Origin: Thermoplasmata archaeon
GTDB taxonomy: Archaea > Thermoplasmatota > Penumbrarchaeia > JAEHCK01
Direction of reading: 5' to 3'
Assembly (NCBI GenBank): GCA_020696345.1
Contig: JAEHCK010000009.1
Location: 1 to 64,000, forward strand
DNA: 64,000 nucleotides
Positions 14,702 to 43,164 of the stretch are shown piece by piece. The position numbers were made by a program, and so were the translations under genes. The notes below the pieces were generated by a model. It saw nothing but the letters and a program-made list of their open reading frames with translations, was not told the origin of the DNA and ran no database searches. The stretch's first letter is position 1, and each line of letters opens with the position of its first letter.

Positions 14702-15883
14702 ATGGCACTTTTAAACAATAAAGGAACCTACTTTTTCTCTTCGGAATCGGTGACCGAAGGTCATCCGGATAAGATGGCGGATACCATCTCTGATTCGATC
14801 TTGGATGCAATTATTGTAAATGATGCAAATTGTCGTGTTGCTTGTGAAACCCTGATCACAACCGGCCTCGCCATGGTAGCGGGTGAGATCACAACAAATT
14901 GTTATGTAGATATTCCAAAAATTATACGTAATACGATACGAAAGATCGGCTACGACGACCCTGCAATGGGTTTTGACTGGGAAAGCTGTGCAATAATAGT
15001 ATCAATTGACGAACAATCACCGGATATTTCGCAAGGTGTATCCGAGGGTAAAGGATTACACAAAGAACAAGGTGCTGGCGACCAAGGGATCATGTTCGGT
15101 TATGCCTCTGATGAAACACCGGAATATATGCCATTGCCAATAATTCTAGCACATAAACTTACAAAAAGATTGACCGTCGCAAGGCGTGAGGGGATCATCG
15201 ATTATATCCGCCCCGACGGCAAATCACAAGTTACGGTCGAGTATCAAAATGGCAGACCATTCCGCGTGGAGACTGTGGTAATTGCAATACAACATAAGGC
15301 AGATATCTCACATGAGCAATTGAAAAAAGACATAATCGAAAATGTTATAAAAGAGATCATTCCACCCGAATTAATTGATGATAATACTAATTATTTTGTA
15401 AATGAAACAGGTGCCTTTGTGCTGGGTGGTCCACGGGCGGATTGTGGTCTAACTGGTAGAAAGATCATAGTAGACACATATGGCGGTGTTGGTTCTCATG
15501 GCGGCGGTGCATTTTCCGGAAAGGATCCATCTAAGGTAGACCGTTCGGGCTCATATATGGCACGATATATTGCAAAAAACATAGTTGCTGCCGGACTAGC
15601 AAATGTATGTGAGATCCAGATCGCATATGCGATCGGTGTACCTGAACCTGTATCCATATTGATAAACACCAATAATACGGGTAAGATCCCCGAAGAGACC
15701 ATCTCACAATTGGTCCGTGAGCACTTCGATTTGCAACCGCACGCGATCATCGAACATTTAGATCTACAACGGCCAATTTTCGCAAAAACCGCGTCGTACG
15801 GACATTTTGGCCGCGATGACCCGGATTTCACATGGGAAAGAACCGATAAGGCAGATGCTTTGAAGAAAGCTGCAGGGTTATAA
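14702..15883 (+). CDS. metK: S-adenosylmethionine synthetase, bacterial-type
   Basis: [99 protein letters not shown] upstream. Confidence 0.96.
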
Positions 15884-17922: not shown

Positions 17923-18096
17923 GTCCAGGTCAAAGACTTTACCACAACGTAAACAATACTTTGCATCAACTGGGTTAATACTCCTGCATTTAGGGCATCG
18001 AAATATTGTTCGATTCTCGGATTTATTAGATCTCGTGCTTGACTTGATAATATCCCTCCAGTCTTTGAACATTTCATTCTTTTGGCAGTTTCTCAT
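17896..18096 (-). CDS. Small zinc-ribbon protein
   Basis: IFRCPKCRSINPVDAKYCLRCGKVFDLDKK; CxxC...CxxC ribbon; C-terminus lies in the hairpin repeat. Confidence 0.6.
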   Translation of the reverse strand: MRNCQKNEMFKDWRDIIKSSTRSNKSENRTIFRCPKCRSINPVDAKYCLRCGKVFDLDKKVASQKE

Positions 18097-18721
18097 CGCT
18101 TAACCATTCTTGCCAGCCAAGATCCGGGTTCTTAATTGCAAAATCCAGGTCCTTGATCAACAATTTAGAAACTTGGATAGTAATTGTTTGTAGATCCATT
18201 ATCTTCTTCAGATCGGGATCAAATATTTTTTTCATATCATTTAACATTTTTTTACCGGACCGCGGTTTACTTGAACGCTTATTTGCATGCTCGCGAATAG
18301 TGGGTAGGTATTGATCGTATGATAGGATCCAAGCCCTATTATCGGATTTTAACAACGCTTCAAATAATTGGATCTTTACCGAATTATATTGTTTTAATCC
18401 TGGAGCAAATGAACCGTCTTTATTCATTTCACGGTCAAAGATCAGTTTGGTCTTTTTAAGATACTCAAAATATGTCGACCGATACTTGTTTGCAAGGCGC
18501 AAATAATCATGGATGGTTTTTTGAAACAGCTCCATCGAGGTTCTGTCATCTTGAAATTTACCTGCAAGATCCATGCGCGCTATTTGACTGATAGGTATGT
18601 TTAGATACAATCCTTTCAAACGTTTTATAACATCATTTACGATCGCTTTTAAGGGTATGTAGATCTCTTTCTTTTTTCGCTTGAAATCCGAATCCATAAA
18701 TATACCATTTTTGAGTTTCAA
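18074..18721 (-). CDS. Hypothetical alpha-helical protein
   Basis: 215 aa, between zinc-ribbon ORF and terpene cyclase-like gene on the same strand. Confidence 0.55.
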   Translation of the reverse strand: MKLKNGIFMDSDFKRKKKEIYIPLKAIVNDVIKRLKGLYLNIPISQIARMDLAGKFQDDRTSMELFQKTIHDYLRLANKYRSTYFEYLKKTKLIFDREMNKDGSFAPGLKQYNSVKIQLFEALLKSDNRAWILSYDQYLPTIREHANKRSSKPRSGKKMLNDMKKIFDPDLKKIMDLQTITIQVSKLLIKDLDFAIKNPDLGWQEWLSDEKLPKE

Positions 18722-18828: not shown

Positions 18829-18872
18829 AAAAAAATGCGTCAATCATTATTCTTTTTACTAAGCATTTTTTT
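18829..18872. repeat. Dispersed hairpin repeat, copy 5
   Basis: aaaaaaatgcgtcaatcattattctttttactaagcattttttt. Confidence 0.8.
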
Positions 18873-20340
18873 AATTTTTTAAGCTTTTTCCTAAATACAG
18901 CGCTGCGATCACACTAGCCTTTGCAACATTCTCCGGGCAGTATAACCCTTTACCTATCCAAAGCTCGGGATAATAATTGGTTTGGAAATGTTTCTCCAGA
19001 TATCGCAATCCGTTATTTATTATCGAGCTATCGATCTTTTCAATATTCAGATGATGATGCAATAATGCCAGGACCGAATATGCGGTCTCTTCCATATTGC
19101 TTACCTTTTGTCCCCAGGAACCATCATCATTTTGTGTGTTGATCATCCATTCCAAAGCCGGCCCGGACATCGAGTCATCCAGATCACCGATCGCTTCAAG
19201 TGCAAGACCGGTACAATAATATGGCGATACATTCCATTTATCGAGCCAATACCCATCATCCTCTCGTGTTTTGTATAAGAATTTCAAGATCTTGTCGATC
19301 ACCTCATCGCGGCGTGCATAGCCTTTTATGTTATTTAACACACTCAATACTTTTATGTTCACTAATGGTGATGGTGACCGTTCCAAGGGATAACAATTGA
19401 AATATTCGTCAGATTCATATTCTTCAAATACCGAAGGATCTAATTTATGGTTGGTTTTATTGAGAATATTAAATACGGTAGTAGTATCATCCAAGTCTCG
19501 GAACGAATAAAGCTGTGACATGGATATGCCCGCTTTTGACCATAACTTACCAAGATCCTCCACCTTTTCTAGGAAATGCTTCTTGATCGGCAAGTCAGAC
19601 TTCATGAAATAGTCGATGACCCAGCCAGTTTCAAAAATATCGAATGGGTATAAGGTCATGGCCGAGCCACCATTAAAATTCAGGACAGTATTAACATAGT
19701 TAAGGGCATTTTTATCGTGCATTTTGGTTAACATGAATGCAGTTGCAGCCGGTGAATTACTGATCGACCCATTTATGTTCTGAGCTTTGAGTAATATATT
19801 TTCCGTGGCATAATCACCTAGAAATTCGAGAGAATAAGTAATTGTAGTATCATTCGAAGCGATCATCTGGGCAATCGCCATATTCATTTTTTTCTCTTTT
19901 ATCGGTTCGTAATATTTTTCGCGATATGGTAGATTAAGCCCAAGATTATTAGCCTCGTTCATCAAGGATGGAAATAATAGTTCAAAGCCAACAGTCTCCT
20001 GTGGTTCAGTGCGCAGTCGACTTATATTATACCAGATATAATCCTCACCAGATTCTATTCGATCTTTAAATTTATCAGCTTTATGTGTCTTTTTCAGTGA
20101 GACTATTGAAGCTAATGTAGAGATCAACCTGTCGTGATAATAATCAACTTCGGCGCCCCAACTGCCATCCGGATTCTGACCGGTGATCACTTCTAACAAT
20201 GATTTTGAAAATAATGGTTTTTTGGAATGTTTGTTTTCAGGAACCATTGCCGCCCAAGCGGTATCATAGGCTAGGCCACGCATATAACCGTCCTTTAATG
20301 ATCTTAGTAATTTGATCGCCTCTTGGGTTAAATTGAGCAT
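18871..20340 (-). CDS. Class II diterpene cyclase-like (copalyl diphosphate synthase family) protein
   Basis: AYDTAWAAMVP; QNPDGSWG; ETVGFELLFPSL; GSISNSPAATAFML; DLDD (residues 282-285, DxDD acid motif); DKWNVSPYYCTGLALEAI; QNDDGSWG. Combination is characteristic of class II diterpene cyclases. Confidence 0.87.
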   Translation of the reverse strand: MLNLTQEAIKLLRSLKDGYMRGLAYDTAWAAMVPENKHSKKPLFSKSLLEVITGQNPDGSWGAEVDYYHDRLISTLASIVSLKKTHKADKFKDRIESGEDYIWYNISRLRTEPQETVGFELLFPSLMNEANNLGLNLPYREKYYEPIKEKKMNMAIAQMIASNDTTITYSLEFLGDYATENILLKAQNINGSISNSPAATAFMLTKMHDKNALNYVNTVLNFNGGSAMTLYPFDIFETGWVIDYFMKSDLPIKKHFLEKVEDLGKLWSKAGISMSQLYSFRDLDDTTTVFNILNKTNHKLDPSVFEEYESDEYFNCYPLERSPSPLVNIKVLSVLNNIKGYARRDEVIDKILKFLYKTREDDGYWLDKWNVSPYYCTGLALEAIGDLDDSMSGPALEWMINTQNDDGSWGQKVSNMEETAYSVLALLHHHLNIEKIDSSIINNGLRYLEKHFQTNYYPELWIGKGLYCPENVAKASVIAALYLGKSLKN

Positions 20341-20525: not shown

Positions 20526-20870
20526 TCATGTAAGCTCAACTACCATTTTCCCCTTTCCATCAGGATAAACTACGATCTCTTTACCTTCTATAAGATTTAA
20601 AAAATGAACGATCTTTGCAGGAATACGTATCGATAGTGAATTTCCTGATCTAACAACTTTAATTTTTTGTGCCAGCCCCCAAATACCTAGCTGTTTTGCC
20701 TTTGTCTCCAATTGTTTCATGGCAGTTTCATCAATAAATGACTCGTTGCATTTATCACATACCTCAGCTTTGAATTTACCCAAAGATACCCCAAACATTT
20801 CTTCTTCTATAGTACCTTCTTTCAATTTTCCTTTTTCACATACAGGACATTTTTTCATATCTATCACCAT
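20526..20870 (-). CDS. YgiT/MqsA-like zinc finger + AbrB-like domain protein (antitoxin-like)
   Basis: MKKCPVCEKGKLKEGTIEEEMFGVSLGKFKAEVCDKCNESFIDE (CxxC..CxxC) then IKVVRSGNSLSIRIPAKIVHFLNLIEGKEIVVYPDGKGKMVVE. Confidence 0.78.
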   Translation of the reverse strand: MVIDMKKCPVCEKGKLKEGTIEEEMFGVSLGKFKAEVCDKCNESFIDETAMKQLETKAKQLGIWGLAQKIKVVRSGNSLSIRIPAKIVHFLNLIEGKEIVVYPDGKGKMVVELT

Positions 20871-22074: not shown

Positions 22075-24909
22075 ATGAGTAAAAGAAAAATTGAAAGAAA
22101 GACCGTAGTAAAAATTGCTGTGTTAGTTGTTTTGGGGATACTTATTTTAGGACTGTATGTTCCATTTGTCCTTGGTTCAGACGAGGAGGGATCCTATACT
22201 ATTACCGGGAGTTATCATATCATTATTGATGACGATGACGATTCAACCATCCAGGTTTTCGGCGTATCGCATCATACAGCTGATACAATAAATAGGTTAT
22301 TAACAGTTCAAGAAGATGGCAAAGTTGGTATCGGCACAGTAACTCCTGGGTATATGTTAGATGTAAAAGCAGGCTCAAGTGTTGGGTCAGCTGCTTTTCA
22401 AGGTGGGGGGGACCCTAGTTTAACTCCTGGAGGAACTTTCACAGGAGCTTCTGCATTAACATATAGAATACAGATTGATGATGACAATGGCGACCCGGAT
22501 ACCTTTGAATGGTCAGATGATGACGGTTCAAATTGGGTCTTCACTGATGTGGCAATTACCGGATCTGCACAAGCATTGAATTATGGGGTCACAATAACTT
22601 TTGGAGATACGGATAATCATTTATTTGGTGATTATTGGACATTTTCAACAACTGTAACGAATCCATTTTCACTTCAAAATGCAGCGGGAACAGAAATATT
22701 ATATACAGGAAATGATGGCAGAATGGGTATTGGAACATTAAATCCAGGCTATACTCTGGATGTAAAAGGAAAATCAAATGTTGGGCCAGCTTTTTTTACA
22801 GGGTCTGGATTAGATGATATGTCAACTGGAGGGACTTTTATAGGAGATTCGGAAATAACTTATATAGTAGGAATTGATGGTACTGGTGGAACAGATAGGT
22901 TCAGATGGACGGATGAGGATGGTGGTGGTCCTCCCTGGAATTATGTAACGATACAAATTACTGGTTCAGCTCAAGAATTAAGCTATGGGGTCACAATAAC
23001 TTTTGGAGCTACAACGGGCCATTCTTCATCTGAAATTTGGACGTTTAAAGCTACGCCAACAAATCCTTTTTCTATTCAAAATGCAGCGGGTACAGGAATA
23101 TTGTATTCAGGAAATAATGGAAATATTGGCATTGGAACGATGAGTCCAAGTTATGTTTTGGATGTGAAAGGAATATCAACTGTAGGCCCACCCCAATTTA
23201 TGGGATCAGGATTAAATGATATGACCAATGGAGGAACTTTCACAGGAGCTTTGGCTAAAGATTATCATATAGATATTGATGCAATTGACCAAGGTATACT
23301 ACCTAATCTTTACGATACTTTCAGATGGACAGATAATTATGGCTTAACCATGACAAACAATGTTGCAATCACCGGTTCAGATCAAACATTAAGTAATGGA
23401 GTAACTATTAAATTTGCCGCCACAACAGGTCACACAAATATGGATCCATGGGATTTTTCTACCACTGTAGCAAATCCTTTTTCTGTTCAAAATGTAGAGG
23501 GGGTAAGAATATTAAGTGTAACAAATGAAAATAAGGTGGGTATTGGTACGCTGACTCCGCAGGAAAAGTTAACATTAGGTTCAGGTGATAATTTTGCTGT
23601 TGAGATGGCAGCCCCTACTTCTGTGTCTGCTGAAGCCACGACGGGGGGATCGCTTTTTTCTCCTAGCACTTATTATTTTAAAGTAGTAGCCTTAGATGGT
23701 ATAGGTACTACCATTGGTTCAAATGAAGACTCGGCATATGTAGATGGCAGTTCCGATACTGCAATAAGTGTAAGTTGGACGGCCCCACAAGGTGCAAGTA
23801 GTTTTCAAATCTATGTTGGCACATATTCGGATGGACAAGATAGATACCACACAGATCTTGATGATGCTTCACCTTTTCTCTTTACAGCTTATGGTGGAGG
23901 AGATGGATCCACACCCTCGCTAGTGCCAATAGTAACAACAGCTTATGTAAATAAAATTACAGCTTCCGGGGATAGCTGGTTCTTGGGCGGTGATGTTGGC
24001 ATCGGAACAACAAGTCCAGATAAATTACTTCATATTGGTGCTTCTGGGGGCACATCTGGAGCTATTAGATTTGAAGCTAGTGATGGAGATGAAATTGATC
24101 TTGGTATTACAACAACTGATGAATTCTATATTATAGGCGGTAATGTCGGTATTGGAACTATAGAACCGGAGGAAAAACTCCACATTGTAGGCGCTACGGC
24201 TACACATGATAATAAAGATTATTCAACTTACCTCACTACTGTAATCGAAGAGGATAATACAGGTCTACAAATTATTGGAAAGCAGGAAACAATAGGAATG
24301 GCACATATAATCTTGACAGGTACTACTAGTAGTGGTGACAATAATCATTGGATAATAAGTCATTATGGTGATGATAGTTACTTTGGCATTGGATACCGAG
24401 AAACCACTTCTAATTTTGCTCCTTATAGTGCAAATCAGGATCACTTTGTTATTGACCCAGATGGAGATGGTAGTACAGATAGAAACAGTATATCTTATGT
24501 AGGTTTTGTTGGTATTGGTGTTGACCCGGTTCCTGAAACAAACCTTGATGTGGAGGGAGGATTCGCAACGAATCTTGTGTATAAAGATGATGATTACACA
24601 GTTCATAAAGGTAATTGGTTCACTGGTCATGATTTTACAATTCTTGTCAATCCAGACTTAGATAATGATGGAGATGTAACAATAACCCTTCCAGACGATA
24701 ATGGTGCTGCACTTGAAGGTCAAATTCTTGTTATTAAGAGAGTTGACCCTTCGGGTGATCATGATGTAACAATTGATCTAATATCAGATAAAATTGATGG
24801 TTCCTATCTTGATATAGAGTTGGATCAATGGGATTCAATAATGATTCAACGTGATGGAAATGGTGATTGGTTTATTTTATCATCACATACATCTGCATCA
24901 GGTCCATAA
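22075..24909 (+). CDS. Cell-surface protein with tail-fibre-like GIGT repeats
   Basis: N-terminal TM; repeated (K)VGIGTxxPGYxLDVKG... and ITGSAQxLxYGVTITFG...NPFSxQNAAGTxILYxGN blocks of ~125 aa; later GIGTTSPDKLLHIG and GIGTIEPEEKLHIVG. Confidence 0.85.
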   Translation: MSKRKIERKTVVKIAVLVVLGILILGLYVPFVLGSDEEGSYTITGSYHIIIDDDDDSTIQVFGVSHHTADTINRLLTVQEDGKVGIGTVTPGYMLDVKAGSSVGSAAFQGGGDPSLTPGGTFTGASALTYRIQIDDDNGDPDTFEWSDDDGSNWVFTDVAITGSAQALNYGVTITFGDTDNHLFGDYWTFSTTVTNPFSLQNAAGTEILYTGNDGRMGIGTLNPGYTLDVKGKSNVGPAFFTGSGLDDMSTGGTFIGDSEITYIVGIDGTGGTDRFRWTDEDGGGPPWNYVTIQITGSAQELSYGVTITFGATTGHSSSEIWTFKATPTNPFSIQNAAGTGILYSGNNGNIGIGTMSPSYVLDVKGISTVGPPQFMGSGLNDMTNGGTFTGALAKDYHIDIDAIDQGILPNLYDTFRWTDNYGLTMTNNVAITGSDQTLSNGVTIKFAATTGHTNMDPWDFSTTVANPFSVQNVEGVRILSVTNENKVGIGTLTPQEKLTLGSGDNFAVEMAAPTSVSAEATTGGSLFSPSTYYFKVVALDGIGTTIGSNEDSAYVDGSSDTAISVSWTAPQGASSFQIYVGTYSDGQDRYHTDLDDASPFLFTAYGGGDGSTPSLVPIVTTAYVNKITASGDSWFLGGDVGIGTTSPDKLLHIGASGGTSGAIRFEASDGDEIDLGITTTDEFYIIGGNVGIGTIEPEEKLHIVGATATHDNKDYSTYLTTVIEEDNTGLQIIGKQETIGMAHIILTGTTSSGDNNHWIISHYGDDSYFGIGYRETTSNFAPYSANQDHFVIDPDGDGSTDRNSISYVGFVGIGVDPVPETNLDVEGGFATNLVYKDDDYTVHKGNWFTGHDFTILVNPDLDNDGDVTITLPDDNGAALEGQILVIKRVDPSGDHDVTIDLISDKIDGSYLDIELDQWDSIMIQRDGNGDWFILSSHTSASGP

Positions 24910-31889: not shown

Positions 31890-33038
31890 TTGATAGAAAA
31901 GTTTCAAGAGTGGTACGAGAAGAGACATGAGTATCAGAAGGAATATAAGGAACGGACCGGCCGGAAGATCGTAGGGTATTTCTGTACATATGCGCCCGAG
32001 GAGATCTTCTACGCTGCAGATGTACTACCAGTCAGGATTCTGGGCTCACACGAGCCGCAGGATGTGACAGAACCGCATATATTCGGCATGTTCTGCCCGT
32101 TCTGCCGTGATGTACTGGCACAGGGGCTAAAAAACAAGTATGACTACCTTGACGGTATCATGATCGCTCAGTCTTGTCTTCACTTGCGACAGGCATTCAC
32201 CAGTTGGGAGCTGCATAAGAACCCGGGGTGGAGTTATTATCTGCCAATGCCCAACCACGTCCAGAGCAAGCGTGCAGTCCCGTTTCTGGTGGAAGAATAC
32301 AAATTACTAATAGAAAAGCTTGAAGAATTGACCGGGAAAAAGATAACCAACGACGACCTGAAACGCGGCATCGAGATCATGAACAGAACAAGGCGTGTTA
32401 TGAAAGATATTTATGAGTTTCGAAAATCCGATAATCCACCCATCACCGGTACGGAAGCCATGTACATGGCCTGTGCACAGTTCTTCACCGATGCCCGTGA
32501 GTTCACCGAGGTGGCCGAGCAGGTTAAAGAAGAGCTGAAAACTCGAACACTTGACCGTGATCCAGGAAAACGTATCATGCTAGTCGGCAGCGAAAATGAT
32601 GATATTGAATATATCAAAATGATCGAGACAATTGGCGAGCGTGAATCGGTTGGGTGTACGGTTGTAATTGAAGAACACTGTACCACCACCAGGTCATTCT
32701 GGCAAGAAGTGGATACCGGCATCGACGACCCGTTAACGGCAATTGCTGAAAGGTATGTTAAACGCACACCATGTCCGTCCAAGGACTGGCCAAAACGGTC
32801 AAGACTGGATACGATCCTGGACTTTGCCAAGGAATATAACGTCGATGGTGCGATCGTGATCCAGCAGAAGTTCTGCGACCCGCACGAGTGCGATATACCC
32901 TTTGTTAGAAAACACCTGGAAAACAATGGCATACCCACATATTTCCTGGAGTTCGATGTTACCGTCGCCGCCGGGCCGTTCGCGATCCGCACCGAGGCGT
33001 TCTTGGAGACACTGGAAGCGGAGGACGATCTATTTTAA
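31890..33038 (+). CDS. bzdN: Benzoyl-CoA reductase subunit, BzdN/BcrC type (2-hydroxyacyl-CoA dehydratase D superfamily)
   Basis: KIVGYFCTYAPEEIFYAADVLPVRILG, FCPFCRDVLAQGL, QSCLHLRQAF, VIQQKFCDPHECDIPFVRKHLENNGIPTYFLEFDVTVAAGPFAIRTEAFLE; gene order. Confidence 0.85.
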   Translation: MIEKFQEWYEKRHEYQKEYKERTGRKIVGYFCTYAPEEIFYAADVLPVRILGSHEPQDVTEPHIFGMFCPFCRDVLAQGLKNKYDYLDGIMIAQSCLHLRQAFTSWELHKNPGWSYYLPMPNHVQSKRAVPFLVEEYKLLIEKLEELTGKKITNDDLKRGIEIMNRTRRVMKDIYEFRKSDNPPITGTEAMYMACAQFFTDAREFTEVAEQVKEELKTRTLDRDPGKRIMLVGSENDDIEYIKMIETIGERESVGCTVVIEEHCTTTRSFWQEVDTGIDDPLTAIAERYVKRTPCPSKDWPKRSRLDTILDFAKEYNVDGAIVIQQKFCDPHECDIPFVRKHLENNGIPTYFLEFDVTVAAGPFAIRTEAFLETLEAEDDLF

Positions 33039-33060
33039 TATTGAGTTGGGAGGTGTAAAA

Positions 33061-34392
33061 ATGGCAAAATATCCTACTGAACCATTGAAATGTTGGAATA
33101 AAGCAAAAGAGTTAAGACAAAAATTCTACGAGAACTTTGACAAGGCTCATGAGCGCGGCGGCCTGCGTGTTATGGGCAGTGCATGGGCATTTGATGCAAT
33201 ACCTCTTGGTCTGGGTCGAGACGTATTCTGGGTCACGGGCGAGCCCTACGGCGCGTCATGTGCATTCGACAAACCGCTCTCTGCGGAATTTTTGTCGGCA
33301 ACCGAGAATTACGGTTTCGCACGTGACCTATGCGCCTACATGAGGAACTACTGGGGTTCGATCATCACAAATAAATATGCCTTTGGCGGAGAGTTTCCAA
33401 AAGCGGATTTTGCGTATACCCAGCATATATGCTGCTCACATGCAAAATGGTACCAGAACGCCTGCGAACTCGAGGGCGGCGATGTGCCGCTGTATGCCAT
33501 CGATGTGGGTGCTGGCCCTTATACGCCATTCTCACCCAAGGTGTACGATCACCGGATCAGGTATGTTGCCGACCAGCTGCTGGATTCGATCGATTGGATG
33601 GAGAAGGTAACCGGAAGAACATATAATGATGAATTATTAATTGAAGCTGCCTGGAACGACATTAGGTCAACCCATATCTGGGCCAAAATATGTTTGCTAA
33701 ATCGAGCCATACCGGCGCCTCTGGATGAAAAGTCAATATACTCGTTATATGTCTTTGGTACATTACAAAAGTCCAATGGCGAGTTTGCCGATTTCTATGA
33801 AAAAGACCTTCTTCCCGAGGTACAGGATAGAGTGGATCGCGGGATCGCTGCGGTCGCCAATGAGCAGGCACGCGTGATGTCGGATACGCAGCCGCCCTGG
33901 GGGTTCTTGAGCATCTATCGGTACCTGGAAAAATGGGGTGTTGTCTCAGTAGGCTCACTCTATACGTTCGGTCTCGAGGGTATGTGGTTGTACGATAAGG
34001 AAAACAACGACCTACAACCGCGACCCTTACCCGAGGAGAAACCGCAGAACCGCGAAGAGGCGTGCACCATGTTGGCAGATTGGCATCTGAGCAAACCCGA
34101 GTACCAGCATTATTACAGCCCCGAGTACAAAACACAGATGATGGACGCGATCGCTAAACACTGGAAACTGAACGGGATCATACTGCACTACAACCGCGGT
34201 TGCGAGGGGCTCTCAGTGGGGATCGCCGAGAACCGGCTCGGGCTGCTGAAAAGGGGTCATAAGGTCTTGACCTATGAAGGTAACATGGGCGACGAGCGCG
34301 AATTTGACCTGACAGCGGTTCAGAACAGGTTCGATATATTTCTTGAAAGCTTAGGCCTCAAAAAATCTGCGGAGGAAGAAGCTACTGCATAA
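33061..34392 (+). CDS. bzdO: Benzoyl-CoA reductase subunit, BzdO/BcrB type
   Basis: RQKFYENFDKAHERGGLRVMGSAWAFDAIPLGLG...ADFAYTQHICCSHAKWYQNACELEGG...HYNRGCEGLSVGIAENRLGLLKRGHKVLTYEGNMGDEREFD; ATG at 33061 after GGGAGGTG. Confidence 0.85.
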   Translation: MAKYPTEPLKCWNKAKELRQKFYENFDKAHERGGLRVMGSAWAFDAIPLGLGRDVFWVTGEPYGASCAFDKPLSAEFLSATENYGFARDLCAYMRNYWGSIITNKYAFGGEFPKADFAYTQHICCSHAKWYQNACELEGGDVPLYAIDVGAGPYTPFSPKVYDHRIRYVADQLLDSIDWMEKVTGRTYNDELLIEAAWNDIRSTHIWAKICLLNRAIPAPLDEKSIYSLYVFGTLQKSNGEFADFYEKDLLPEVQDRVDRGIAAVANEQARVMSDTQPPWGFLSIYRYLEKWGVVSVGSLYTFGLEGMWLYDKENNDLQPRPLPEEKPQNREEACTMLADWHLSKPEYQHYYSPEYKTQMMDAIAKHWKLNGIILHYNRGCEGLSVGIAENRLGLLKRGHKVLTYEGNMGDEREFDLTAVQNRFDIFLESLGLKKSAEEEATA

Positions 34393-34445
34393 TTAATAAT
34401 GTGGGCATTGTAAATTGGAGATTGGAAATTTGAATAATTTTCTAG

Positions 34446-34491
34446 AGAAAAATTATTCTACATTGGAAAACTCTTCGACTTTTCCAAAGTT
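34446..34491. repeat. 46-bp hairpin repeat, exact inverted copy of 54245-54290
   Basis: agaaaaattattctacattggaaaactcttcgacttttccaaagtt; internal stem TTGGAAAA/TTTTCCAA. Confidence 0.95.
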
Positions 34492-34542
34492 GTAAAAGTG
34501 AACGGATGATAAAAATACAATGCAAGATAAGAGGAAGATAAC

Positions 34543-35316
34543 ATGATAACAATTGGAATTGATTGTGGTGCAAAGAACACAAAAACCGTTGTAATGAAAG
34601 ACAAAGAGATGATCGGTAAAGCCTCGACATTAACGGGTTTCGACCAGGTTGCCGCTATTAAGACATCATTTGAAGCCGCATTAAAAGATGCGGGTATTGA
34701 AGCGTCAGCGGTTGAAAAGATCGGGGGTACCGGTGCAGGCATAGAAGATATAACTCAGGCCGATATCAAGGTCAATGAGATCAAAGCGATTGCAAAGGCG
34801 GCAAATTACTATTACCCCTCTGCACGTACCGTGACCGATGTGGGTGCCGAGGAGGGTCGTGCCGTGAAGATCGATGATAAAGGCCACGTAGAAGATTTTG
34901 CCATTAACGAAAAATGTGCAGCCGGTGCTGGTGCATTCATCGAGGCCATGGCTCGCGCACTGGAGACCAAACTCGAGGAGATGGGGCCAATGGCCTTGAA
35001 ATCCGATAAAGAGATACCAATGAATGCCCAGTGTGCGATCTTTGCCGAATCAGAGGTTGTGGGTTTAATTCATGCAAAGACAAAAAAGCAGGATATCAGC
35101 AAAGCCATCCATGATGCAATGGCGAGTCGGATAGTCTCGATGATCAGAAGGATCGGGGTGAACAAAGACGTCGTCATGCTCGGCGGCGTCGGGTTAAACC
35201 CGGGTTTCGTCAGCTCATTGAAGAGACAATTGGAGATCGATGAGCTATTTATCCCCGAAAACCCATCATATGGCGCAGCGGTCGGTGCGGCGATGGTAGC
35301 AGCGGAGGAGGCATGA
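34543..35316 (+). CDS. bzdP: Benzoyl-CoA reductase ASKHA ATPase subunit (BzdP-like)
   Basis: ITIGIDCGAKNTKTVVM, TVTDVGAEEGRAVKI, NEKCAAGAGAFIEAMA, GGVGLNPGFVSSLKRQL. Confidence 0.83.
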   Translation: MITIGIDCGAKNTKTVVMKDKEMIGKASTLTGFDQVAAIKTSFEAALKDAGIEASAVEKIGGTGAGIEDITQADIKVNEIKAIAKAANYYYPSARTVTDVGAEEGRAVKIDDKGHVEDFAINEKCAAGAGAFIEAMARALETKLEEMGPMALKSDKEIPMNAQCAIFAESEVVGLIHAKTKKQDISKAIHDAMASRIVSMIRRIGVNKDVVMLGGVGLNPGFVSSLKRQLEIDELFIPENPSYGAAVGAAMVAAEEA

Positions 35317-36221
35317 TCATGGTAGAAGAAACAGAAAGTACCGAGAAAAAGCAAGAGTTCTGGCGCTGGACAGAGTCCAACTGGAAAAGTCCGGATATAA
35401 AATGGCAAGATGCAAAGATAATCACGGCAGGAATAGATGTAGGTTCCGTGAGTTCGCAAGCGGTGATCGCCGCAGATGGCGATATCTTTGCATACTCGAA
35501 TATGCGCACGGGCTCGGATAGCCCGGAGAGCGCAAAAAATGCGCTGAATTACGCTCTTAAAGGGACCGACATGCCCGAATCCAGGATCGATTATTGTATC
35601 GGAACAGGTTACGGAAGGGTCAATGTGCCAATGGCTGATAGAAGTATTACAGAGATCGCATGCCATGCAAGAGGTGCAAATTTCATCTATGGTAACCAGG
35701 TAAGGACAGTACTGGATGTGGGCGGGCAGGACTGTAAAGCCATCAGGTGCGACGAAAAGGGTAAGGTGATCAATTTCCTGATGAACGATAAATGCGCCGC
35801 CGGTACGGGCAGGGGCATGGAGGTGTTCGCAGACCTTTTATCCGTACCCATCGTTGATGTTGGCGAGCGCTCGTTCCAGGTTAAAAAAGAGCCTGAGCCA
35901 GTATCAAGTACCTGTGTGGTCTATGCCAAAACCGAAGCAACCGGTCTTCTGCGGAAAGGTTGGGAGGTCAACGAGGTCCTGGCAGCATATTGTTCCGCCA
36001 TGGCCGAGAGGATATATTCGTTAATAGAGCGCATTGGCATCGAGAAGGAATTTGCTATAACCGGCGGCATGGCCAAGAACCGCGGCGTTATCGACCGGCT
36101 CATGAAGATCATCAAGATCGACCCGATGAAAACAGAATGGGATACACAGATCGCCGGCGCAGTAGGCGGTGCTCTGTTTGGATATACGTTGGTGCAAAAA
36201 GGTAAAGGACGTCAGAAATAA
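35313..36221 (+). CDS. bzdQ: Benzoyl-CoA reductase ASKHA ATPase subunit (BzdQ-like)
   Basis: ITAGIDVGSVSSQAVIAADGDIFAYSNMRTG, TVLDVGGQDCKAIRCDEKGKVINFLMNDKCAAGTGRGMEVFADLL, FAITGGMAKNRGVIDRL; overlaps the previous gene by 4 bp. Confidence 0.85.
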   Translation: MIMVEETESTEKKQEFWRWTESNWKSPDIKWQDAKIITAGIDVGSVSSQAVIAADGDIFAYSNMRTGSDSPESAKNALNYALKGTDMPESRIDYCIGTGYGRVNVPMADRSITEIACHARGANFIYGNQVRTVLDVGGQDCKAIRCDEKGKVINFLMNDKCAAGTGRGMEVFADLLSVPIVDVGERSFQVKKEPEPVSSTCVVYAKTEATGLLRKGWEVNEVLAAYCSAMAERIYSLIERIGIEKEFAITGGMAKNRGVIDRLMKIIKIDPMKTEWDTQIAGAVGGALFGYTLVQKGKGRQK

Positions 36222-36243
36222 TATTGTTGAATTTATGTTGAAA

Positions 36244-36278
36244 AGTCAAGAGTCTGGAGTCGAGAGTCTATAGTCAAA
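36244..36278. repeat. 7-bp phased AGTC array (left flank)
   Basis: agtcaag|agtctgg|agtcgag|agtctat|agtcaaa. Confidence 0.8.
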
Positions 36279-36325
36279 ATAATTATAGAGTTAAATTACA
36301 AAGATTGAAAAAATGACTGATTGAA

Positions 36326-36703
36326 ATGAGTGCAATTCAAAAGTTCGAGGAAATAAAGGCTTGGCAGAAAGCAAGGGACTTGACTAATGAGATATATCAT
36401 GTTAGTAAGAAAGGGGAATTTACCAAAGATTTTACACTTCAAAATCAAATAAAAAAAGCTTCAATTTCAATTATGCTTAATATTGCTGAAGGATTTGCCA
36501 GAAAAACAGATAGGGAATTTAAACAATTTTTTGCATATGCTCATGGATCATGCGCTGAAGTTCAATCAGCTTTATATATTGCATTAGATCAAAAATATAT
36601 TTCTCAAAAACAGTTTGACATACTTTACTTAAAATCTGAAGAAGTCTCAAAAATGATCATGAATTTCTCACAATATTTATCCAAATCATTAAAAATAAAA
36701 TGA
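36326..36703 (+). CDS. Four-helix-bundle protein (23S rRNA intervening-sequence protein family)
   Basis: FEEIKAWQKARDLTNEIYHVSKKGEFTKDFTLQNQIKKASISIMLNIAEGFARKTDREFKQFFAYAHGSCAEVQSALYIALDQKYIS. Confidence 0.92.
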   Translation: MSAIQKFEEIKAWQKARDLTNEIYHVSKKGEFTKDFTLQNQIKKASISIMLNIAEGFARKTDREFKQFFAYAHGSCAEVQSALYIALDQKYISQKQFDILYLKSEEVSKMIMNFSQYLSKSLKIK

Positions 36704-36729
36704 CTCTCGACTCTTTAGACTCTCGACTA
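36702..36729. repeat. 7-bp phased GACTCTN array (right flank, inverted sense)
   Basis: gactctc|gactctt|ta|gactctc|gacta. Confidence 0.75.
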
Positions 36730-36770
36730 ATCATTAAAAATATTTATTAAATAACCAGGAAGTAATTATT

Positions 36771-37058
36771 ATGTTAGCAAACTACGGCTATAAGGATGGT
36801 TCGGGTGAATATTATATCACCATTGATTCGGATAAATGCAACGGCTGCGGCCAATGTGTTGAGGTCTGCCCCGGCAAGGTGTTGGCAGTCGGTGAGGACC
36901 AAAACGACCCACTGAGCGATGATGATGTTGCATATGTAGTTGATGAGGAACGCAAGAAAATTAAGTATACATGCGGTCCGTGCAAACCGGCCTCGAATCG
37001 ACCGGAGCTGCCATGTGTTGCTGCATGCGAACCTGAAGCGATTGTGCATTCATGGTAA
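36771..37058 (+). CDS. bzdM: Ferredoxin (BzdM-like)
   Basis: DKCNGCGQCVEVCPGKVLAVGEDQND...YTCGPCKPASNRPELPCVAACEPEAIVHSW. Confidence 0.8.
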   Translation: MLANYGYKDGSGEYYITIDSDKCNGCGQCVEVCPGKVLAVGEDQNDPLSDDDVAYVVDEERKKIKYTCGPCKPASNRPELPCVAACEPEAIVHSW

Positions 37059-37330
37059 AATCGATGAATGATCGTCGTAAAAGTCAATGGAGTCAAGAGT
37101 CTAGGGAGTCAACTTAGCATAATTATTGCTTAGGGCATTGTAAATTTCAAATTGGAGATCGAAAATTTGTAATTCAGCTCGTCAGTCAGTTGGTCAGCCT
37201 GTCTGCAGGTTGAATGGACGACTAGTTGACTATAGACCTGACCCCTAAATTGTGACACCGGACCCCTGATATTCGGACTCTCGACTCCCTGGACTCTCGA
37301 CTCTCCAGACCATAACTTGAGGGATCATAA

Positions 37331-39889
37331 ATGCAGAATAAAATAACAATTGATAGCACCGAACTCAAATCCGAGCATGATGAAACAATTTTAGATGCAG
37401 CAGACCGCGCGGGGATCTATATCCCGCGGCTGTGTTTTCGACCAGGGTTACCGCCATCACATGAGCTGAAACCATCGGAGAACGGTATATACCGCGATGG
37501 AAAGCTGATCAAAACAGATAACCAAGAACCGTTTTCCGGGTGTAAACTATGCATTGTCGAGATCGACGGCCAGCCCGGTGAGCATACTGCATGCGATACC
37601 AAGATCACAGATGGTATGGTGGTTAAGACCAATACGCCTGAGCTAAGGTCAAAGCGGCAGGAGCACCTGGTTTCAATACTAAAAGAGCACCCGCATGTGT
37701 GCCTGACCTGTGCGCAGAAAGAGGGCTGCTCGAGAACGCAGTGCTCGGCAAATGTACCCGATCCCGAGAAATGCTGCATTCAACTGGGCAACTGTGAACT
37801 TGAAAAGGTGGCCGATCATATCGGCATGAAACCGGAAACTCCGAAATATGTGCCACAAAATTTGCCAAAGGAAGATCAAGAGCCACTGTTCATTCGCGAT
37901 CATAATTATTGCATCGGCTGTCTACGCTGTGTTCGTGCATGTACAGAGCTGTCGGGCGCCGATGTGCTGGGGTTCGTGTACAAAGATGGTAAGATACTGG
38001 TGGGGTCCAAGAGCGCCCCGGGGTTCGCAGATGCGAAATCGCCCTGCCGGTTCTGCGGACTTTGTGTAGAGGTATGCCCCACAGGCGCATTGATGGATAA
38101 AGAACCGAAGTCCGGGGAGCGCAGCAGTTGGCTGGTTCCCTGCAAGAGCACATGCCCGGCCGGTGTTGATGTACCGAGATATGTACAATATATCGCTCAA
38201 GGTAAACCTGCAGAGGCAGCGGCTGTGATCCGCGAAAAAGTACCGTTCCCGGGTGTGCTTGGCCGTGTGTGTTTCCACCCGTGCGAGGATGTGTGTCGGC
38301 GCGGCGTTGTAAATGAGCCAATATCGATCTGCTCGTTGAAGAGGTTTGCCGCCGATCATGATACCGGTCTCTGGAAAGAGCGCGCAGACGAGAATACTAA
38401 AACACACAAGAAGACCGATAAAACCGTGGCGGTGATCGGCGGCGGTCCGGCGGGGCTCACGGCGGCGTATTACCTGTCGCGTAAAGGTCATTTTGTAACA
38501 CTCTACGAAGCCAAAGAGCAGGTCGGTGGTATGCTTGCCTGGGGTATACCCAAATACCGGCTGCCCGAGTCGGTGCTGAAACAGGAGCTCCAGGATATTT
38601 TAACAACAGGACTCGAGATCAAAACGAACACCACGGTAGGTAAAGATATACAATTTAATGCAATCAGAGCAAATTCCGATGCGGTGTTCATCGCGATCGG
38701 TGCATGCCAGACCAAAATGCTCGAACTTGAAGGCATTAATCTGGAAGGTGTGCACCTGGGTATGGACCTTCTGAAAGCGGTGAACCTAAGCAATCAAGAT
38801 AAGATCCAACTGGGCAAGCGCGTTGTAGTGATCGGCGGCGGTAATGTAGCGGTCGATGTTGCAATGACCGCACGCCGTGAGGGTGGTGAGGATGTGCAGC
38901 TTGTCTGCCTGGAGACACGCGATGAGATGCCGGCCTTCCACTGGGAGCTCGAAGAGGCGGTGGAAGAGGCAATTACTATCAACAATTCATGGGGCCCGAA
39001 ACGTATCCTCGGCTCTTCAGACGGCAAAGTAACTGGTATCGAGTTAAAACGGTGTACCTCGGTGTTCGATGAGCATGGAAATTTCGCACCCAGGTATAAC
39101 GAGACCGAGACGAAAACCATCGAAACAGATTGCGTAATCCTGGCCATTGGCCAGGCATCTGATCTTGATTTCCTGGAAGGCACTGAGAGCTGTGTTGAGA
39201 CCGCCCGTGGCTGCATTTTGGTTGACGAAGCCACTCTCGAAGCCACCACCGGCGTGTTTGCGGGCGGTGATGTTATCAAACAGCCCGGGTCTGTGATCAA
39301 TGCGATCGCAGCCGGACGTACAGCAGCATCGGCGATGGATAGATACATGGGCGGCGACGGCGTCATCGATGAGACATTACTACCAGTCGAGGAGATTAAC
39401 CAGAAGATCGAACCAGTCAACGGTTTCGCCGGCCAAGCGCGTGTATCTGACTCCAGGCTCGACCCTGAAAAACGACTCTGTTATGACGAGCTCTGTATGG
39501 GCCTTGACCAGACCGATGCGACTAGGGAAGCCCTGCGCTGTCTACGGTGCAGCCTGCGTCTTGAGCTGCCAGAGGTTATACTGCCGCCCGAGGATATCAT
39601 AGGGTTCAACGCCGAGAACATTTCAGCCGTCCCCGATGATCTTGAAGGCGTATTCCAGCTGCTGGATGGGGACAAGAATGTTCTGGTGATCAAAGGCACC
39701 GTAGATGTCAAGGCCGGGCTCAACGAGATGTTAGACGGGACCGAGAAAACCAAGTACTTTATGTACGAAGAGGATAAGATGTACAGTAAGCGCGAGAGCG
39801 AGCTGATCCAGGTCTACCTGCAGAAGCACGGCCAGATGCCGCCGGGTGACGGTGCGGGCGGCGGTGATGATATGGATGATCTGTTTTGA
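37331..39889 (+). CDS. bzdV: Fe-S flavoprotein NAD(P)H:ferredoxin oxidoreductase, GltD-like (BzdV-like)
   Basis: N-terminal 2Fe-2S/NuoG-like region, CIGCLRCVRAC and CRFCGLCVEVCPTGAL clusters, KTVAVIGGGPAGLTAAYYLSRKGHFVTLYEAKEQVGGMLAWGIPKYRLPESVL, VVVIGGGNVAVDVAMTARR, AGGDVIKQPGSVINAIAAGRTAA. Confidence 0.88.
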   Translation: MQNKITIDSTELKSEHDETILDAADRAGIYIPRLCFRPGLPPSHELKPSENGIYRDGKLIKTDNQEPFSGCKLCIVEIDGQPGEHTACDTKITDGMVVKTNTPELRSKRQEHLVSILKEHPHVCLTCAQKEGCSRTQCSANVPDPEKCCIQLGNCELEKVADHIGMKPETPKYVPQNLPKEDQEPLFIRDHNYCIGCLRCVRACTELSGADVLGFVYKDGKILVGSKSAPGFADAKSPCRFCGLCVEVCPTGALMDKEPKSGERSSWLVPCKSTCPAGVDVPRYVQYIAQGKPAEAAAVIREKVPFPGVLGRVCFHPCEDVCRRGVVNEPISICSLKRFAADHDTGLWKERADENTKTHKKTDKTVAVIGGGPAGLTAAYYLSRKGHFVTLYEAKEQVGGMLAWGIPKYRLPESVLKQELQDILTTGLEIKTNTTVGKDIQFNAIRANSDAVFIAIGACQTKMLELEGINLEGVHLGMDLLKAVNLSNQDKIQLGKRVVVIGGGNVAVDVAMTARREGGEDVQLVCLETRDEMPAFHWELEEAVEEAITINNSWGPKRILGSSDGKVTGIELKRCTSVFDEHGNFAPRYNETETKTIETDCVILAIGQASDLDFLEGTESCVETARGCILVDEATLEATTGVFAGGDVIKQPGSVINAIAAGRTAASAMDRYMGGDGVIDETLLPVEEINQKIEPVNGFAGQARVSDSRLDPEKRLCYDELCMGLDQTDATREALRCLRCSLRLELPEVILPPEDIIGFNAENISAVPDDLEGVFQLLDGDKNVLVIKGTVDVKAGLNEMLDGTEKTKYFMYEEDKMYSKRESELIQVYLQKHGQMPPGDGAGGGDDMDDLF

Positions 39890-42117: not shown

Positions 42118-43164
42118 ATGAGGAAAAAGCAATATCGTGTCGAAGTTTCTTATCCGAAAAAGGGCAAGCCAAAATATTTTTTAGTAAAGGATGTTTTATT
42201 TAAGAAAATAAAGAGAAAAGTTAAAAAATATCTAGGTGTAAAACAACCATCATTAGAAGAAATTGATAAATATAGAGAAAATTTCGCTTATGATTTAGAA
42301 ATAAAAGCTGTTTTAAAGAAAGCAGAAATTAGTAGTAATTTCTATTCATCTGAATATCTTTCAAAAGCTGAAATCAGAGATTTAGAAGAAATGAGATTTA
42401 TTTATTTAGCGACTAATAATTTAATGACAGTAAATGAATTTGAGGCATATGAAAAAGATTTTGAAATTCATTATGTTCATGGTACAACAAATTTTGAAGG
42501 CAATACATTAACATTAAGCCAAACTCATGATTTATTGAACTATGGGATAATTCCTCAAAATAAAGAATTAAGAGAAATCAATGAAGTTCAAAATTTTAAA
42601 AATGTTTTGAAATTTAGAAATAATTCCAAAGGGATGGTTGATCTAGATTTTATCAGAAATCTTCATGCGTTGATTATGAATAACATCGATTTTGAATCTG
42701 CCGGAGCATTCAGAAGAACAGATGATGTTGGAATTGATGGTTGTGATTTAAAAGTTTGTCCGGCCATTTTTATTGAGGAAGAAATAGATATATTAATTAA
42801 AAACTACTATGAAAAACTTGATAATTGCTTTAATCCTTTTGAACAAGCAATTTATTTCCATTATCAATTTGAGATGATTCATCCATTTAGTGATGGGAAT
42901 GGTCGTGTTGGAAGAGAAATTTTAAATTATATGCTTAAAAGAAATAATTATCCAAAATTATTATTTTTAGGAAAGGATAGGCAAAAATATATCAAATCCT
43001 TGAAATTGGGTAATAACGAAAAATATACAATAATGGTTCAAAAGCTTCTAAAAATAATTTTAAAACAAAGATTAGGAATTTTAAAAGAAAACTTAAAGAA
43101 ATTTGTTATACCCATTCAAAAAAGAGGACAATTAAGATTAACAGATTTCATCAACACAAAATAA
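42118..43164 (+). CDS. Fic/DOC-family protein
   Basis: HPFSDGNGRVGRE (HxFx[D/E]GNGRxxR); upstream TTNFEG matches the [S/T]xxxE[G/N] inhibitory motif. Confidence 0.92.
   Translation: MRKKQYRVEVSYPKKGKPKYFLVKDVLFKKIKRKVKKYLGVKQPSLEEIDKYRENFAYDLEIKAVLKKAEISSNFYSSEYLSKAEIRDLEEMRFIYLATNNLMTVNEFEAYEKDFEIHYVHGTTNFEGNTLTLSQTHDLLNYGIIPQNKELREINEVQNFKNVLKFRNNSKGMVDLDFIRNLHALIMNNIDFESAGAFRRTDDVGIDGCDLKVCPAIFIEEEIDILIKNYYEKLDNCFNPFEQAIYFHYQFEMIHPFSDGNGRVGREILNYMLKRNNYPKLLFLGKDRQKYIKSLKLGNNEKYTIMVQKLLKIILKQRLGILKENLKKFVIPIQKRGQLRLTDFINTK

Follow-up and report, generated by a model that had tools for sequence, protein, structure and literature searches.

What would an archaeon do with a diterpene cyclase, and with which enzyme would it share the work? 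Archaea use geranylgeranyl diphosphate (GGPP) for their membranes. The question is raised by a gene, P0001, in a 64,000-nucleotide stretch of DNA (the window: positions 1 to 64,000 of contig JAEHCK010000009.1, assembly GCA_020696345.1) from a metagenome-assembled genome (MAG) of a Thermoplasmata archaeon. P0001 occupies 18871..20340, the open reading frame (ORF) indicated by an initial annotation made from the letters alone, and lies on the minus strand, which that annotation had left unstated; it starts with ATG and encodes 489 residues in a frame unbroken by stops. Sequence and modelled fold identify P0001 as a class II (DxDD) diterpene cyclase that is nearest to Rv3377c of Mycobacterium tuberculosis. 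It probably catalyses the first of two steps in a diterpene pathway of tuberculosinol/kolavelool type, the second of which would fall to an Rv3378c-type enzyme.

A cyclase nearest to Rv3377c

Searched with phmmer against the Protein Data Bank, P0001 matches 6vpt over residues 20-483 with an E-value of 1.4e-60 and the plant ent-copalyl diphosphate synthase (ent-CPS) 3pya with 4e-45. The first of these is Rv3377c, the tuberculosinyl (halimadienyl) diphosphate synthase of M. tuberculosis (PMC9814783). An AlphaFold2 model, for which the homologue input was limited to fetched sequences, has a mean local confidence (pLDDT) of 93.3 and a predicted template-modelling score (pTM) of 0.93, and predicts an all-helical fold of two barrels (β-γ). 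With this model Foldseek again places 6vpt at the top (E 1e-28, template-modelling (TM) scores 0.88/0.89, root-mean-square deviation 2.7 Å), followed by PtmT2, plant ent-CPS and Tpn2; squalene-hopene cyclase comes a long way below. The annotation had assigned the gene to the class II DxDD cyclases of tuberculosinyl/copalyl type, and both searches agree with it; the comparison with Rv3377c by sequence and structure search that it proposed finds this protein nearest on both counts, with the two-barrel fold.

All the motifs quoted initially are present in P0001 (among them AYDTAWAAMVP, QNPDGSWG, ETVGFELLFP and QNDDGSWG), and the DLDD read as the catalytic acid motif lies as noted at residues 282-285 (19486..19497, minus strand, as are all sites below). 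In an alignment of 39 cyclases D282, D284 and D285 fall on the class II acid motif and D284 is opposite Rv3377c D295, D282 and D284 being invariant across all aligned homologues; another DLDD, at residues 386-389, stands outside the catalytic column and is distinct from the acid motif. QNPDGSWG (residues 55-62, 20155..20178; Q55 and G59 invariant) is the first QW-type repeat of the α/α barrel and QNDDGSWG (residues 403-410, 19111..19134; G407, W409 and G410 invariant) the second. The same alignment places DKW at residues 367-369 (19234..19242), a predicted diphosphate-binding Lys and active-site Trp whose counterparts in these roles are K383 in Tpn2 and W380 in Rv3377c (PMC9814783). In all, P0001 retains D282, D284, D285, T286, W365, D367, K368, W369, W461, K464 and Y467, has the metal motif DxxxxE in the conservative form E115xxxxE120, and shows no DDxxD on sequence reading and no class I α domain. 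It thus shares with Rv3377c its length, two-barrel fold, catalytic Asp pair, DKW, Trp473, Tyr479 and non-basic A475 site, but differs in being archaeal, at 31.5% identity, with DxDD where Rv3377c has DxDT. PtmT2 (an ent-CPP synthase, 5bp8) and Tpn2 (7xkx), bacterial class II enzymes with the same two-barrel fold, are more distant.

This set of active-site residues favours a rearranged product (halimane or clerodane-like) rather than a copalyl one. Tyr467 (18940..18942) aligns with Y479 of Rv3377c, the proposed base for the halimane product (PMC9814783), and Gly463 aligns with A475, so that P0001 lacks a basic residue here, which speaks against the reaction ending at the copalyl stage; an Asp at this position is linked to copalyl products, and PtmT2 has such an Asp at the Gly463 site (PMC9814783). 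The product itself is not readable from these residues, because Tpn2, with the equivalent Tyr and a non-basic residue, forms a clerodane and no halimane (PMC9814783).

A candidate second enzyme in the same genome

Seeing no class I synthase beside the cyclase, the annotation had supposed either an unusual product or a partner elsewhere. The location was guessed well: an Rv3378c-type gene, a 331-residue ORF, sits on another contig (C80) of the same MAG, here called G000. It was located (C80:25388-26299) by a search with the Rv3378c homologue of G045, which with G050 forms a pair of genomes of one genus belonging to another class than G000. The presumed class I DDxxD/NSE type did not hold, as the encoded protein has a cis-prenyltransferase fold instead; a search for class I terpene synthases (PF19086) found no match in the three archaeal genomes and none in the control genomes either, so that absence is not shown. 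The C80 protein matches Rv3378c over nearly its full length (phmmer E 1e-28 to 3e-28), and its model (pLDDT 76) has Rv3378c as best Foldseek match (1e-20, next family 6e-10). It is nearer to the Rv3378c family than to the genome's undecaprenyl diphosphate synthases (UPPS), the ordinary members of which are separate genes in these archaeal genomes.

Compared with Rv3378c (the tuberculosinyl transferase or tuberculosinol synthase; 3wqk, 4cmv), the C80 protein has the same fold and keeps Asp34, Arg37 and Arg38 as D41, R44 and R45, but it is only 27.7% identical, and the archaeal proteins have in common a short insertion behind the Arg pair and an altered C-terminal stretch. On the most likely reading the second enzyme of the pathway has diverged in archaea. 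Position 34 also varies across the family, being Asp in archaea and Mycobacterium, whereas every Chloroflexota partner with a residue aligned at this site has Asn.

The proposed pathway would run as follows. GGPP, which the annotation had named as the likely substrate, is predicted as such by the nearness of P0001 to Rv3377c in phmmer and fold and by the Rv3378c-type partner. From fold and residues, it would be held folded between the two α/α barrels of P0001, where Asp284 would protonate its terminal double bond and a decalin would form; the cation would then rearrange and be quenched without loss of the diphosphate, and the resulting bicyclic diphosphate would be either a halimane (tuberculosinyl) or a clerodane (kolavenyl) compound. 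The C80 enzyme would remove the diphosphate and add water to yield a diterpene alcohol, or might alternatively join the terpenyl group to another acceptor. If this is true, bicyclic diterpenoids are produced in archaea along the same scheme as a tuberculosis virulence lipid. In the open-access papers searched, neither a class II diterpene cyclase nor an Rv3378c-type enzyme is described from archaea; the enzyme kinds are known, and what appears new is their archaeal presence and the changed second active site.

Co-occurrence, selection and descent

Among 393 sampled genomes of the phylum a full cyclase is present in three, G000, G045 and G050 (split across two contigs in the last), and the same three are the only ones with a strong partner match. 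In G045 the cyclase is followed directly by the Rv3378c homologue, with 29 bases between them. Between G045 and G050 the ratio of nonsynonymous to synonymous substitution (dN/dS) is about 0.12 for cyclase and partner alike, and both genes are therefore under purifying selection.

A wider scan with patterns of the partner covered 85,462 species genomes, the patterns limiting its reach and the window's own genome records being possibly excluded. It returned 17 loci: the two archaeal MAG contigs of G045 and G050 (Euryarchaeota archaeon CSMAG_327 and CSMAG_707), one Mycobacterium angelicum fragment, and for the remainder MAGs of Chloroflexota/Anaerolineae. Here partner and cyclase are mostly adjacent (e.g. 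L035:7992-10393, L072 and others among L022-L069), and identity reaches about 52% to M. tuberculosis Rv3377c and about 49% to Rv3378c. In the trees the sister of Rv3377c is a Chloroflexota cyclase (100/98) with which it shares 52% identity, and Rv3378c is placed among the Chloroflexota partners (99/94). It has been stated that Rv3377c/Rv3378c have no orthologues outside mycobacteria, and an origin from a plasmid of plant-associated bacteria has been argued (2024, PMC11476799); the nesting of the mycobacterial sequences among Chloroflexota pairs offers a lead on the origin of the mycobacterial genes.

P0001 groups with the Rv3377c-type Chloroflexota cyclases, apart from PtmT2 and from two Chloroflexota groups that are more remote. 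Whether archaeal homologues form one clade had been asked at the outset: the archaeal cyclases do fall within the Rv3377c-type clade, while their single origin has a p of 0.32 in the approximately unbiased (AU) test and the branching order is not settled. The archaeal partners are united in an unrooted tree (100/99) and branch successively at the base when distant UPPS outgroups are added (one-clade AU p 0.24), both placements being weak because of long branches. Their position outside all bacterial partners speaks against recent transfer from the sampled Chloroflexota.

Weighing the alternatives

Several observations weigh against the pathway proposed here. Identity to characterised enzymes is only about 28-32%, and product and stereochemistry are therefore beyond prediction. 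At the site of His H341 of Rv3377c it alone has Lys (Lys330, 19351..19353), whereas every other aligned cyclase has His, including all 35 Chloroflexota rows, PtmT2 and the other archaeal cyclase; we do not regard this as disqualifying, because the invariance is a property of this alignment and not a citable published criterion. The G045 cyclase has Asn at the Tyr479 position and Glu in place of the DKW Lys, so that the two archaeal products may differ. In the second enzyme no Tyr is found at Rv3378c Tyr51 in either archaeal lineage (the alignment around 51 is uncertain), and Tyr90 is replaced by Trp103 in G000 and kept as Tyr in G045; these are the residues mutated in the Rv3378c substrate-complex crystals 3wqn and 4kt8. 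The loss at Tyr51 and the Trp at Tyr90 mean that the second reaction may differ from that of Rv3378c, and because of them we term the archaeal partner a homologue and not a confirmed tuberculosinyl transferase. Lastly, G000 has its cyclase and its partner on separate contigs, and the estimated contamination of this MAG is 6.22%, so that the case for their belonging to one genome is built on archaeal marker genes and composition.

Could the cyclase contig then be a bacterial contaminant, which the annotation had named as a refutation, or the gene be decaying? That contamination estimate, the lack of a cyclase homologue in the 13 other genomes of its class and best scores to Chloroflexota would fit such a view, but the contig is archaeal. 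The window encodes the archaeal tRNA Cm56 methyltransferase aTrm56 (PRK03958, above cut-off), the codon usage of the cyclase is typical of the window, and the tetranucleotide signature of the window matches C80 (r 0.76-0.77, as against 0.75 between the window halves) and is unlike that of Chloroflexota contigs. C80 for its part carries an archaeal-type alanyl-tRNA synthetase (TIGR03683, 1178 bits) and methanogenesis marker 16, in line with the archaeal context first claimed. With an open, full-length frame and the pair present in a second archaeal lineage, contamination or decay is very unlikely. That P0001 is a relative of squalene-hopene cyclase, or belongs to some other non-diterpene branch of the class II cyclases, is harder still to credit. 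Pfam and NCBIfam find mainly a local squalene/hopene-type stretch in P0001, and the best Pfam match is indeed SQHop_cyclase_C (58.5 bits), but TIGR01507 scores 46 bits against a cut-off of 431 in a match that is local only, and Foldseek puts the diterpene cyclases far higher (1e-28 vs 7e-11).

The other two alternatives accept the cyclase and concern its substrate or what follows. P0001 might make a bicyclic prenyl diphosphate on which phosphatases, such as the adjoining HAD-type enzyme, or another transferase act, the Rv3378c-like protein having no part in it. In its favour are the lack of linkage between the two genes in G000, the HAD_2 phosphatase gene immediately upstream of the one for the Rv3378c-like protein (L017:9655-10356, on C80), and the absence of Tyr51 from the archaeal partners; yet both genes occur in the same 3 of 393 genomes, they are adjacent in G045 and in most Chloroflexota relatives, and Rv3378c is the nearest protein in fold and sequence, which makes this unlikely. 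The annotation had also suggested that the enzyme might instead cyclise a precursor of the archaeal membrane lipids, on its geranylgeranyl chain. A gene of geranylgeranylglyceryl phosphate (GGGP) synthase type and two polyprenyl (GGPP-type) synthases are present, and since class II cyclases work at the chain end remote from the head group a larger head group is conceivable. No positive support for this reading emerged, however: the diphosphate-binding Lys of DKW and the ExxxxE metal motif are retained, the closest relatives use free GGPP, a diphosphate-processing partner co-occurs, and the cyclase is absent from nearly all sampled genomes of a phylum whose domain generally makes such lipids. 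We consider it the weaker reading and highly improbable.

Comparison with other two-enzyme systems

The logic of a class II cyclase followed by a cis-prenyltransferase-type enzyme is also that of the O-methylkolavelool cluster of Herpetosiphon (Haur_2145; Nakano 2015), as summarised in later papers (PMC9814783, PMC8131916). That cluster, likened here by description, is from Chloroflexota and differs in being bacterial and in its methylated clerodane product. MM_0014, an archaeal cis-prenyltransferase of the same fold class as the C80 protein, is able to O-prenylate, but its original activity is C-prenylation of isopentenyl diphosphate, an ordinary chain elongation (PMC8131916). Tuberculosinol synthase and kolavelool synthase are the only hydrolysing members of the cis-prenyltransferases named in that source (PMC8131916).

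Gene neighbourhoods

Directly downstream of the partner gene, in each of the two archaeal lineages, is a gene for a protein with a seven-transmembrane (7TM) region and two DUF835 domains (L017:11382-13418; L018:12311-14398). These two proteins are full-length best matches between the genomes, above all other DUF835 proteins, and so orthologous; G000 has about 13 DUF835 loci and G045 has 8, which puts the chance of the shared adjacency at the order of 1e-5, a rough estimate that assumes one gene per kilobase. Behind the Chloroflexota pair there are mostly genes for a PAS-histidine kinase and a response regulator (L022:10421-12494 and the corresponding places in about 10 loci), and genes for FemAB-like proteins and ICMT-type methyltransferases are often upstream. 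A membrane sensor thus stands beside the pathway in archaea and Chloroflexota alike, which is suggestive, no more. One might go further and imagine a secreted or membrane-held terpenyl conjugate (a nucleoside or ether), sensed or controlled by the 7TM-DUF835 protein, in a system of chemical signalling or interaction that predates its role in tuberculosis; we think this a long shot.

The HAD gene upstream of the G000 partner recalls Rv3376, the HAD gene beside Rv3377c/Rv3378c in mycobacteria. As a conserved third member of the system it was rejected: none of the ORFs at the Chloroflexota loci is related to it and no HAD gene is directly beside the G045 pair, so that we regard it as a mere parallel to Rv3376. 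The neighbours of P0001 in the window, at 18074-18721 (no family) and 20526-20870 (MazE-like), were searched for a functional link to the cyclase and none was found.

Other features of the window

Elsewhere in the window, 31890-39889 (plus strand) encodes 2-hydroxyglutaryl-CoA dehydratase-type subunits, BcrAD activators and an NAD(P)/FeS oxidoreductase, at a raised G+C fraction of 0.49-0.53 (vs about 0.39), while a Fic-domain gene at 42118-43164 (plus) has a very low one of 0.26. A repetitive surface-type protein of 944 residues (22075-24909, plus) is weakly similar to phage tail fibres. At 14702-15883 (plus), adjoining a ThiC-like gene, is a MetK of the TIGR01034 type, the bacterial form of this enzyme, here in an archaeal genome.
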